Origin: Elusimicrobiota bacterium
GTDB taxonomy: Bacteria; Elusimicrobiota; Elusimicrobia; Elusimicrobiales; UBA9959
Assembly (NCBI GenBank): GCA_016209085.1
Contig: JACQWV010000017.1
Span: 1-60,339, forward strand
Length of the DNA: 60,339 nt
Reading direction: 5' to 3'
Below are positions 33,465 through 46,853 of this stretch, one piece after another. The position numbers and the translations under genes are program-made. The notes beneath the pieces are model-generated. The model made no database searches and had not been told where the DNA came from. It worked only from the letters and a program-made list of their open reading frames with translations. Each line of letters begins with the position of its first letter. The stretch's first letter is position 1.

Positions 33465-33527
33465 CCAGTGACAAGTTGCAAGTTTCAAGTCACAAGTGAA
33501 AACCTGTAACTTGTGACCTGTGACCTC
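33465..33527. repeat. Inverted period-7 array (aagtcac-type arms)
   Basis: aagttgc aagtttc aagtcac aagtgaa / taacttg tgacctg tgacctc. Confidence 0.9.
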
Positions 33528-37253: not shown

Positions 37254-37340
37254 CAGTCACAAGTTGCAAGTTTCAAGTCACAAGTTCTTTCTCTTCAGTT
37301 TCCGTTACTTGTGACATGCGACCTGTGACTTGTGACCTGC
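37254..37340. repeat. Inverted period-7 array (aagtcac-type arms)
   Basis: Contains the 27-mer acaagttgcaagtttcaagtcacaagt, identical to 33471-33497. Confidence 0.92.
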
Positions 37341-42520: not shown

Positions 42521-43240
42521 CTACATTTCAAAATCCCAGCCTAAATAGAGCTCTCTGGCTTTTTCGTCGTTGAGCAGCTTGTCAGCAGCGCCTTCAATCA
42601 ATATCCTTCCCTGGTATATGAGATAAGAACGGTCCGTGACCGAGAGGGTTTCTCTCACATTGTGGTCCGTTATCAGGATTCCTATGGCTTTGTCTTTCAG
42701 CATTCTTATTATTTTTTTGAGATCGCTTACTGTTATGGGGTCTATGCCTGCGAAAGGTTCGTCAAGAAGTATTATTCTGGGTTCGTTTATCATTACCCTG
42801 GCCGCTTCAAGCCTTCTCTTTTCTCCGCCTGAAAGGGTCCATGCCTTTTGTTCGCGCAGGTTCCACAGCCCGAATTCCTCAAGAAGACTTCTGGTCTTTT
42901 CCTGAATGGCGTTCCTGTCTTTCAGGATTCTTTCAAGTATGGCTATAAGGTTTTCTTCCACGGTTAAACCGGTAAAAACAGTCGGCTCCTGCGCGAGATA
43001 ACCTATGCCCATTCTCGCGCGCTTATACATCTGTGTTTTTGAAATATCCTGTCCGTCAAGGAAAACCCTGCCTGAATCCGGGGAGATGAAACCCATCAGC
43101 ATGTGGAATGTGGTCGTTTTTCCGGCTCCGTTGGGGCCTAAAAGACCGCAGATTTCGCCGGATGCGATTTCAAGGGAAATCCCGTCCACTACTCTCTTCC
43201 TGCCGTAATTTTTTATCAATGATTCAGAATGGAGTTTCAT
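42521..43240 (-). CDS. lptB: LPS export ABC transporter ATP-binding protein LptB
   Basis: GLLGPNGAGKTTTFHMLMGFISPDSG...MGIGYLAQEPTVFTGLTVEENL...LSGGEKRRLEAARVMINEPRIILLDEPFAGIDPITV. Confidence 0.95.
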   Translation of the reverse strand: MKLHSESLIKNYGRKRVVDGISLEIASGEICGLLGPNGAGKTTTFHMLMGFISPDSGRVFLDGQDISKTQMYKRARMGIGYLAQEPTVFTGLTVEENLIAILERILKDRNAIQEKTRSLLEEFGLWNLREQKAWTLSGGEKRRLEAARVMINEPRIILLDEPFAGIDPITVSDLKKIIRMLKDKAIGILITDHNVRETLSVTDRSYLIYQGRILIEGAADKLLNDEKARELYLGWDFEM

Positions 43241-44208
43241 GGTTTAACCGAATGAATCCAGCCGCGCACGTTGCCGGATACGCTTAAGTTTCCCGTATTT
43301 CTGAAAAATTTTATTTGTTCTGCGATGATGGTAAAATCATAACCTTCTTTTATTCCGGTCACTGACGGAGTTGAGCCGTAGAGAAGAAATGAGGAATCGG
43401 CGTTCTGGTAAAAGGCATTTTCGGATGCGGCTATTATCCTGTCGTTTTCAAGAGAGAAATTTCCCATGAAATTTATTTCGGATTTAATCCCGTCCGCTTC
43501 TATTTTCCCGCATTTTGTGCGCAGCGTCTGGCCGTCGGCATAGCCTTCGGCGCCTGGGGCGGCGGTGGCGATGTTCCGGTCGGGCGACATAGCGCCCGAC
43601 ACTTGCCTGCCCCCATGCTTTGTTTCTGCAAGAAACTGTGGGGGATGAGCCGGAGGCTCGTTGTTCCGGCCGTCCTTTGAAGCGTAAGAAAGAAGAAGAA
43701 GCCTTTGTTCCTGCGGCAGGAGAACTGCCTTCTTTGATTCTTCAAAATAGTTTCCGCTGTCGGCCTGTTTTATTTCCATGGTTGAACCGTCGTCAAAAAA
43801 ACGCAGGCAGTAAATATTTTTCTGGAAATTCCATTCTTTTTTTGCCTTGTCGTAAACTGCAAAATCCGCTTTGAGATTGTAGTAAGGGTTTTTGAAAGAA
43901 ACGTCGCCGTCAAATATTTCAAGACGGTTTATCCTGTCTATTTTCCAGTTTCTGCTTCTTACCACCGAGCCCATTAAAAAATCATCGGATGTTTGGGCAT
44001 ATAAAGGAAACAGAAAACATAAAATGTAGCTGCAGAGCGAAGCTCTGCCATAAAGATAAGGAAGTAGTAAACAGAATACCCGCCGCCCCAACCCCGCGGG
44101 TTGGAACTTCAACCCGCGGGGTTGAAGAGGTAGTAGCTGCAGAACTTGCTTTGCCATAATGTTGCTATTTTGTGGCGGATATTTTTGTTTCCTGATTTTG
44201 TATCTCAA
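43237..44208 (-). CDS. lptA: LptA/OstA-like LPS export protein, N-terminus and one internal segment repeat-derived
   Basis: Overlaps lptB by 4 nt and precedes it; beta-jellyroll-like segments (RLEIFDGDVSFKNPYYNLKADFAVYDKAKKEWNFQKNIYCLRFFDDGSTMEIKQADSG). Confidence 0.65.
   Translation of the reverse strand: MRYKIRKQKYPPQNSNIMAKQVLQLLPLQPRGLKFQPAGLGRRVFCLLLPYLYGRASLCSYILCFLFPLYAQTSDDFLMGSVVRSRNWKIDRINRLEIFDGDVSFKNPYYNLKADFAVYDKAKKEWNFQKNIYCLRFFDDGSTMEIKQADSGNYFEESKKAVLLPQEQRLLLLSYASKDGRNNEPPAHPPQFLAETKHGGRQVSGAMSPDRNIATAAPGAEGYADGQTLRTKCGKIEADGIKSEINFMGNFSLENDRIIAASENAFYQNADSSFLLYGSTPSVTGIKEGYDFTIIAEQIKFFRNTGNLSVSGNVRGWIHSVKP
43530..43672. repeat. Composite REP-like insertion inside lptA
   Basis: gtcggcatagcc..., gtcgggcgacatagcgcccgacacttg, gccggaggctcgttgttccggcc; shared words with 52199-52346. 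Confidence 0.75.
44032..44140. repeat. REP-like palindromes at lptA N-terminus (gcagagcgaagctctgc; caaccccgcgggttggaacttcaacccgcggggttg)
   Basis: Strong inverted repeats; first copy also at 21005, second matches 17410 (reverse complement). Confidence 0.9.
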
Positions 44209-44716
44209 TCTGCGTAAGGTCGGGGTTGGCCATGAATCCCCTTCCTTTTGTCACGGTTTCTCCCTTGTAAATGGTTATTTCTTCGTCGGTCCAGATTTTA
44301 TTTTCAGCTGACTTAAACAGGATTGTCTTTGTGCCGAGCCGCATATTTTCGGTTCTGGACACGATTGACACGTTTCCGCTCAGTTCAGCGTCTTTGGTTG
44401 AAAGATTCAAAAATCCGGAATCGGAGCTCATTTCGGAAGTTATTGCCCCTGCCGCGTAAAGTTTCAGTTTAGGATGCGCAAGCCTGATTTTGCCGTCTTT
44501 TTCGTTTAAGTTCGCTCCTGCGGAAACAAGGCTCCATTGGTCCTTATTGTCTTTTGATTTAAACAATTCAAGGTCTTTTATTAAATTCACCGGTTCCTGC
44601 GACTCCTTGTTCCGTGAGCTCTGCGAACTGCCGGAACATGAAACCAATAAAAGAAGAAAACAAGTTACAAGACACAAGTTACAAGTCACAAGTGAAAATT
44701 TAGAGAAGCCCTTCAT
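44165..44716 (-). CDS. lptC: LptC-like lipoprotein
   Basis: Lipobox LVSC; SLVSAGANLNEKDGKIRLAHPKLKLYAAGAITSEMSSDSGFLNLSTKDAELSGNVSI; position next to lptA/lptB. Confidence 0.7.
   Translation of the reverse strand: MKGFSKFSLVTCNLCLVTCFLLLLVSCSGSSQSSRNKESQEPVNLIKDLELFKSKDNKDQWSLVSAGANLNEKDGKIRLAHPKLKLYAAGAITSEMSSDSGFLNLSTKDAELSGNVSIVSRTENMRLGTKTILFKSAENKIWTDEEITIYKGETVTKGRGFMANPDLTQIEIQNQETKISATK
44662..44696. repeat. Period-7 array encoding LptC-like signal peptide core
   Basis: aagttac aagacac aagttac aagtcac aagtgaa (plus strand); minus strand reads FSLVTCNLCLVTC. Confidence 0.92.
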
Positions 44717-45692
44717 TAAGCAGGTCTCTTTCGTCTATTATGCCGACCGGTTTTTTTGTTTCAGGGTCAATTACAGGGATATTGTCTATTTTCATCCTGG
44801 ACATTATTCTGGCCGCTTCTGCGGCCATGGTATCGGGATGGACCGTTATCGGGTTCCGGGTCATTACGGAAGTTATTTTCTTGTTGAGGCTGGTTTCGCC
44901 CTTTTGCAGATACCTGCGCAGGTCTCCGTCGGTAAAGAAGCCTATCAGCCTGCCTCTGCCGTCTGTCACCGAAGCGGCGCCGAGTCTGGTCTTTGTCATC
45001 ACATACAGCGCGTCTTTAATCAGGCAGGAATTTTTTATCACCGGATTTTCTTTGCCCTTGTGCATCAGGTCTTTCACTTTCGTGTTAAGCAGTTTTCCAA
45101 GGGAGCCGCCCGGATGAAGCCGGGCTAATTCGGCTTTGTCAAAATTTTTTATTTTCATCAGGGTAATCGCAATGGCGTCTCCCAGAGAGAGCATCGCGGC
45201 GGTTGAAGAAGTGGGCACGATATTGAAAGGACATGCTTCCTTGCGGACATTGAGATTGAGGGTTATGTCCGAATGTTTCGCTAATTTTGAATTGAGGTTG
45301 TTCGTGATTGAAATTATCCTGTGTCCTCTGGATTTGAAATACTGAAGGAGCAGGGCGGTTTCATGCGTTTCTCCGGAGTAGGAAAGAGCCAGCGCCACGT
45401 CTTTACGGCCGACCATCCCCATGTCTCCATGAAGGCATTCAACGGGATGGAGATAAATGCTCGGAGTTCCGGTTGAAGAAAGGGTTGCCGCTATCTTTCT
45501 GCCTATGATTCCGGATTTTCCGATGCCTACCACCACGACTCTGCCTGTAGAGTCCAGAATCATTTTTACGGCATTGGCGAAATTCCTGTTCAGACCTTTT
45601 GACAGGCTTGCGAGCGCCGCCATCTCCCTGTTGATGACTTCTTTGCCGCATCTGATTAACAAATGTTTTGAATTATCCCTTTTGTTTTTCAT
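44700..45692 (-). CDS. kdsD: Arabinose-5-phosphate isomerase (KdsD/KpsF), SIS + 2 CBS
   Basis: VVVVGIGKSGIIGRKIAATLSSTGTPSIYLHPVECLHGDMGMV; SGETHETALLLQYFKSRG; RLHPGGSLGKLLN; CBS repeats. Confidence 0.95.
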   Translation of the reverse strand: MKNKRDNSKHLLIRCGKEVINREMAALASLSKGLNRNFANAVKMILDSTGRVVVVGIGKSGIIGRKIAATLSSTGTPSIYLHPVECLHGDMGMVGRKDVALALSYSGETHETALLLQYFKSRGHRIISITNNLNSKLAKHSDITLNLNVRKEACPFNIVPTSSTAAMLSLGDAIAITLMKIKNFDKAELARLHPGGSLGKLLNTKVKDLMHKGKENPVIKNSCLIKDALYVMTKTRLGAASVTDGRGRLIGFFTDGDLRRYLQKGETSLNKKITSVMTRNPITVHPDTMAAEAARIMSRMKIDNIPVIDPETKKPVGIIDERDLLNEGLL

Positions 45693-45958: not shown

Positions 45959-46034
45959 AGTGATTAGTGGTCAGTGTATAGTGGTTAGTTCTTTTCCATC
46001 ACTTGTCACTCGCCACTAACCACTTGCCACTGTC
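45959..46034. repeat. Inverted period-7 array overlapping kdsA 3' end
   Basis: agtgatt agtggtc agtgtat agtggtt / ccatcac ttgtcac tcgccac taaccac ttgccac. Confidence 0.92.
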
Positions 46035-46853
46035 CTTTGCCAGCGTATCTATATGATTTAGCATATTGACTGCGTCGCATACAAGACTGAGTTTCAGGGA
46101 ATTGGGGCCGTCTGACAATGCTTTTGAGGGATCCGGATGGGTTTCAAAGAAAATGCCGGCTATTTTCAGGATGCAGGCGGCTTTGGCAAGAGGAAGGGCA
46201 AATTTTACGTCTCCTCCGGTAATATTGCCGAGTCCCGCCGGTCTTTGAACAGAGTGGGTGCAGTCAAAAATTACGGGATATCCGGTCTCTTTCATTATTT
46301 CTATGGAGCGCATGTCAACGACAAGATTGTTGTACCCGAAACACGTGCCTCTTTCAGTCAGGAGTATTGACCGGTTGCCTCTGGATTCTATCTTCTTCAC
46401 CGCATTTTGAATTTCCCATGGCGACATGAACTGGCCCTTTTTTATGTTTACTGTTTTGCCCGTATCCGCGGCTGCTGCCAGAAGGTCAGTCTGTCTTGAG
46501 AGAAAAGCAGGTATCTGGATGATATCCGCGCATTTGGAAACCATCGGCGCCTGCCATGTTTCATGCACGTCAATAAGAACGGGGATTGCGAGTTTTCTTT
46601 TAATCTGCGCAGCGATGTCCAGGCTTTTTTTCATCCCTATTCCCCTGAAGGATTTGTGGGAAGTCCTGTTGGCTTTGTCAAAAGAAGCCTTCAGCGCAAA
46701 GGGGGTTTTAAGCCTTGAAAAAACGGTCTTAAGTTTTGAGGCAATGGCCGTAAATCCCTTTTCGGATTCAATCACGCACGGGCCAGCTATGTAGACGAGT
46801 CTGGAGTCGTTGGAAAACGTGATGCCGCCGGCTTTTACTTTTTTTGGGGTCAT
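45999..46853 (-). CDS. kdsA: 3-deoxy-8-phosphooctulonate synthase
   Basis: [105 protein letters not shown]. Confidence 0.97.

Follow-up and report, generated by a model that had tools for sequence, protein, structure and literature searches.

The Elusimicrobiota genome studied here carries a degenerate, dispersed heptamer repeat (ACAAGTC/GACTTGT), one copy of which, at the kdsD-lptC junction, is probably translated as the middle of the signal peptide of the LptC lipoprotein, as judged from the DNA and its predicted reading frames. In the window, i.e., the whole stretch of 60,339 nucleotides that was analysed, five degenerate ACTTGTR copies, all in one direction, follow each other at 44662..44696 on the minus strand (ttcacttgtgacttgtaacttgtgtcttgtaactt). 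They are read in frame as codons 7-19 of lptC, giving MKGFSK-FSLVTCNLCLVTC-FLLLLVSC and then SGSS (the translation of the open reading frame at 44165-44716 runs MKGFSKFSLVTCNLCLVTCFLLLLVSCSGSSQ..., the N-terminus of the product being MKGFSKFSLVTCNLCLVTCFLLLLVSCSGSS), and this array with its translation ahead of FLLLLVSC is exactly the one given by an earlier, sequence-only reading. Tandem Repeats Finder placed the array at 44660-44693, with a period of 7 or, with 95% match, of 14. Hydrophobic cores are of low complexity, and in the related genus g5, too, a Cys precedes the lipobox Cys by eight residues, as might be expected if this were an ordinary Leu/Val/Cys-rich core whose codons look repetitive by chance. 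But the lag-7 identity of the array (23/30 over 37 nt) exceeds the highest value from 40 simulated 60-kb Markov sequences (21), and identical words recur at dozens of other sites in the genome with almost none in a reversed control, which already contradicts a chance origin and leaves it barely credible. Most likely, the array is real, translated and repeat-derived signal-peptide DNA, given its in-frame position in lptC, the identity and neighbourhood of this single-copy gene, the unrelated signal peptides of its orthologs and the downstream start with heptamers in g5.

The gene itself (44165..44716, minus strand) encodes an LptC-like lipoprotein of 183 aa that matches the Pfam profile LptC (PF06835) at 1.2e-17 and 64.5 bits (cut-off 21). 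It is the sole match in its own genome, and 57 of the 59 family genomes have one match. Its neighbourhood on the minus strand reads kdsA-kdsD-lptC-lptB, with a kdsA-like KDO-8-phosphate synthase (45999..46853, Pfam DAHP_synth_1), a kdsD/kpsF-like arabinose-5-phosphate isomerase directly upstream of lptC (44700..45692, SIS plus two CBS) and an lptB-like ABC ATPase downstream (42521..43240, Pfam ABC_tran). The open reading frame in the lptA position (window 43237-44208) lacked a Pfam match at the 0.001 level, and the TTG start listed for it is probably too far upstream. The genome is a metagenome-derived draft of 140 contigs and repeats are prone to misassembly, but the lptC frame is intact throughout and is the only lptC match of a 98% complete genome, the array is much shorter than a read, and the junction in g5 carries repeat-like DNA as well; an assembly error or a decayed gene is thus very improbable.

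The n-region is encoded by the codons for MKGFSK (44699..44716, minus strand), the ATG lying in a 17-nt overlap with the 3' end of kdsD, while the end of the hydrophobic region and the lipobox, FLLLLVSC (44636..44659, minus strand), place the predicted lipidated Cys at residue 27. A motif test (not SignalP) found LVSC with Cys27 and two Lys among residues 1-7. Between charged start and lipobox lie the 12 repeat-encoded residues, which are hydrophobic (the Kyte-Doolittle mean is 1.8 for the repeat-coded residues, 2.29 for the full core and -1.24 for the opposite strand). The ATG at 44716, upstream of the array, is the sole in-frame start with a positively charged n-region, and from this motif we infer it to be the start of lptC; the Shine-Dalgarno ahead of it is weak by eye. 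Were the gene to start further downstream, the array would be left untranslated, and a GTG at +10 and a TTG at +22 are indeed in frame, such codons being used as lptC starts by many genera. Both lie inside the array, however, and would yield signal peptides without Lys or Arg and hence without positive charge, and a start at the TTG at +52 would remove the hydrophobic core with no Lys/Arg ahead of the hydrophobic stretch. A normal n-region is obtained solely from ATG 44716, and a downstream start is improbable.

Across the 2.35-Mb genome, the pattern ACTTGTNACTTGT has 29 matches vs 1 for its reversed control, and CAAGTNNCAAGTNNC occurs 98 times vs 2 for the reversed pattern. The units in this genome are CAAGTCA, CAAGTCT, CAAGTTG and CAAGTTA, in arrays of 15-80 nt without fixed ends. 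We surveyed sampled stretches around pattern matches, with open reading frames called by a codon score trained on the window: 16 of the 42 sampled sites are intergenic, 3 just touch the end of an ORF and 23 are inside ORFs or at their C-terminal end. The claim that this word family is intergenic elsewhere did not hold up against these counts, and the wider proposal, that a spreading non-coding repeat became part of the export signal of LptC, survives for the in-frame array in a real lptC gene but not for the non-coding nature of the family, more than half of whose sampled copies are in called genes. The host ORFs include IspD-IspF, an Mfd-like TRCF protein, a leucyl-tRNA-synthetase-like protein, a MobA-like transferase, a histidine kinase and an RHS protein, and the gene-internal copies usually form hydrophilic TSHKSQV linkers from the ACAAGTC strand. 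Some of the N-terminal sites (L156, L157, L163) may be miscalled starts. In IspD-IspF (L170:2030-2109; G000:C68:15629-15708) the array fills the linker exactly, where nine orthologs are 22-24 residues shorter; this is a clean in-frame insertion and suggests that the family tolerates translation outside lptC.

Further arrangements were seen along the way. At 33472-33496 and 37260-37281 in the window and at L182:2043-2067, a common composite ACCAGTSACAAGTTGCAAGTTTCAAGTCACAAGT is followed by heptamers in opposite orientation, two of the three adjoining gene starts, which suggests that a longer, partly palindromic unit was copied. A second, short palindromic word (GTAGCTGCAGAGCGAAGCTCTGCC and variants) lies beside heptamer arrays at 44025-44052 and 44130-44160 of the window and near arrays in L041 and L050. 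The first residues of MNTTKSQVSSLKSQVTGCMLLITICYLPFTA at L173:2090-2120 (G000:C83) come from an array and may be the n-region of a further signal peptide.

By sense strand, the 23 ORF sites divide into 22 with ACAAGT and a single one, lptC, with ACTTGT (one-sided binomial 2.9e-6 vs equal orientation, for sites that are partly dependent, the two RHS copies being paralogs). The bias can be explained by the repeat itself, since ACAAGTC arrays are stop-free in all frames (peptide TSHKSQV) and ACTTGTR arrays are closed in all, with a stop each 21 nt and the heptad LVTC(D/N)L before it; because seven is a multiple of three plus one, every frame of the ACTTGTR strand gives the identical heptapeptide. 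The lptC array is open through one variant base, GTGTCTT for GTGACTT, by which the TGA of the regular repeat is TGT (Cys15; 44672..44674, minus strand). CAAGACA units make up 3 of the 137 units in the sample (about 2%), so an ACTTGTR-sense array of the lptC length would usually be closed. We considered the TGA-to-TGT change as a sign of selection in lptC and withdrew this, since the variant unit ACAAGACACAAGT, rare as it is, is present at 4 sites in this genome and in 9 other family genomes and is thus no proof of selection; it may rather be standing variation that predated the recruitment and enabled it. Among the 59 family genomes, none of 18 inspected loci was a convincing further ACTTGTR-sense signal peptide with a lipobox; open LVTCDLCLVTC stretches are present in family genomes, e.g., in G025, G001 and G013.

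The kdsD-lptC junction was compared in 29 relatives, all comparisons being between genera, with our own genus represented by one genome. Related genera have homologous LptC bodies with unrelated signal peptides, and in many of them the lptC start is a TTG or GTG that overlaps the stop of kdsD. Compared with genus g5 (L006, L008), 70/170 residues of the LptC body are identical and the N-termini do not align. The kdsD 3' end of g5 (cttaatgaagggcttctctaa) differs little from ours and shares the out-of-frame ATG, which there reaches a stop; lptC begins 154-184 nt past kdsD with the N-terminus MNKYLLFFIC(M/L)(P/T)FL(M/I)(S/V)SC. The spacer between the two genes contains heptamer-like degenerate DNA (lag-7 peaks at 0.62 and 0.76 in 28-nt windows, and lag-14 reaches 0.79). 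Unrelated signal peptides or a downstream lptC start had been predicted for the relatives from the window alone, and both were found. A repeat-coded segment in lptC was not found among the other 58 family genomes, nor did their lptC genes reveal the segment LVTCNLCLVTC, named beforehand as evidence against a repeat origin should repeat-free orthologs share it. The array end LVTC aligns without a gap to FFIC of g5, and in each the Cys stands eight residues ahead of the lipobox Cys, so this resemblance may in part go back to older sequence. The KdsD tree, with its open forks, does not firmly resolve the sister genus of ours; g5 is close and not proven to be the sister, and a search of genome contigs with KdsD yielded no closer relative. 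Two side observations concern the same junction. In g5 (L006:2460-2510, L008:2460-2505) a long inverted repeat extends over the stop codon of kdsD (in L008, CTCTAAGAGAAGGG...CCCTTCTCTTAGAG), and one genome of genus g3 has a different 8-base repeat between kdsD and lptC (L010:2463-2600, lag-8 0.85). Since a different repeat occurs there, the junction seems prone to repeat gain.

Two histories can be read from this comparison. The gene could already have begun at ATG 44716 as MKGFSKFFLLLLVSC, with a 36-nt piece of array (12 codons) added later as a translated passenger and not as the source of the signal. Without the 12 codons, MKGFSKFFLLLLVSC keeps two Lys and a valid lipobox along with a short hydrophobic core and thus looks like a normal lipoprotein signal, and clean in-frame insertions of the family are found elsewhere, in IspD-IspF and as TSHKSQV in other genes. 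However, no examined ortholog has its lptC start at -17 from the kdsD stop, and in g5 the ATG in the kdsD end leads to a stop, with the lptC start downstream; we regard such an insertion as possible but the less probable course. Replacement of an older signal is favoured on account of the g5 arrangement. On that history, repeat DNA would have built up in the interval from kdsD to lptC, the former lptC start would have been lost or bypassed, and the out-of-frame ATG pre-existing in the kdsD end would have become the new start, the stop in the array being removed by the one variant base that gives TGT in place of TGA. A 5-bp target duplication (TTTTC flanking the array) was dropped as a candidate, by eye, as a 38-nt insertion leaves no usable start before it and the flank is too short. 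Sec export, lipidation of the Cys and removal of the residues preceding it are general lipoprotein processing expected with a lipobox. The preprotein is accordingly predicted to pass through Sec, receive its lipid at Cys27 and be cleaved, whereby the repeat-encoded residues would be discarded and mature LptC would remain unchanged.

The lptC case thus provides a readable example of how repeat DNA may turn into the sorting signal of a conserved protein, signal peptides tolerating replacement because they are cut off from the mature protein. Since the seven-base unit encodes the same heptapeptide in every frame, orientation alone decides whether an array gives a linker or a hydrophobic, stop-prone stretch. 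It is tempting to speculate, with considerable doubt, that the frame-independent heptamer acts as a two-sided supplier of protein parts, giving hydrophilic TSHKSQV linkers one way and hydrophobic export-signal cores the other way after a stop mutation, and that spreading repeats repeatedly rebuild signal peptides in this group. In any case, housekeeping proteins of one bacterial family carry heptamer insertions in frame, which amount to many natural insertion experiments.

An earlier report of these repeats in Elusimicrobia was not found in the literature searched. Heptameric repeats are over-represented and little studied (PMC4692102). Those of Xanthomonas and Nostoc share with the family described here the dispersed heptamer arrays and the sequence variation between copies, but are G-rich and favour intergenic regions, where they are over-represented, over the coding strand of ORFs, where they are under-represented (PMC4692102). 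Also related in organisation are the TAACTGA direct repeats of Beggiatoaceae, Cyanobacteria and Bacteroidetes (MacGregor, 2015, PMC4679880), with one strand carrying stops in all frames and the other open, and with some, mostly peripheral copies in ORFs (PMC4679880). The seven-base unit, the closed strand opposite one open in all three frames and the presence of some copies in ORFs are the same here; the unit, however, is not TAACTGA, and whereas the TAACTGA repeats are mostly intergenic and related heptamers are rare, our family is degenerate and more than half of its sampled sites fall in called ORFs. Rickettsia palindromic elements, as outlined in a review, are 105-146 bp long, have inverted repeats and are found in frame in conserved housekeeping genes (Ogata et al., 2000, reviewed in PMC2229807). 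In-frame insertion into conserved protein genes and absence from orthologs recur here (the IspD-IspF linker, nine orthologs), but as 7-bp tandem arrays without the fixed length and terminal inverted repeats of the elements so outlined. A parallel to lptC is YPO1552 of Yersinia, in which, according to the same review, a YPAL/RU-2 repeat is fused in frame and forms part of the predicted signal peptide (Delihas, 2007, reviewed in PMC2229807). In both cases a dispersed repeat contributes to a predicted signal peptide through an in-frame fusion; in Yersinia, on that account, the repeat is MITE-like and the protein a new one of putative export, whereas here the repeat is a heptamer array and the gene a conserved, single-copy one for LPS transport. 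The absorption of repeat DNA into LptC appears, then, to be a clear but not an unprecedented case, which extends known repeat behaviour to such a conserved single-copy gene and to this heptamer family.
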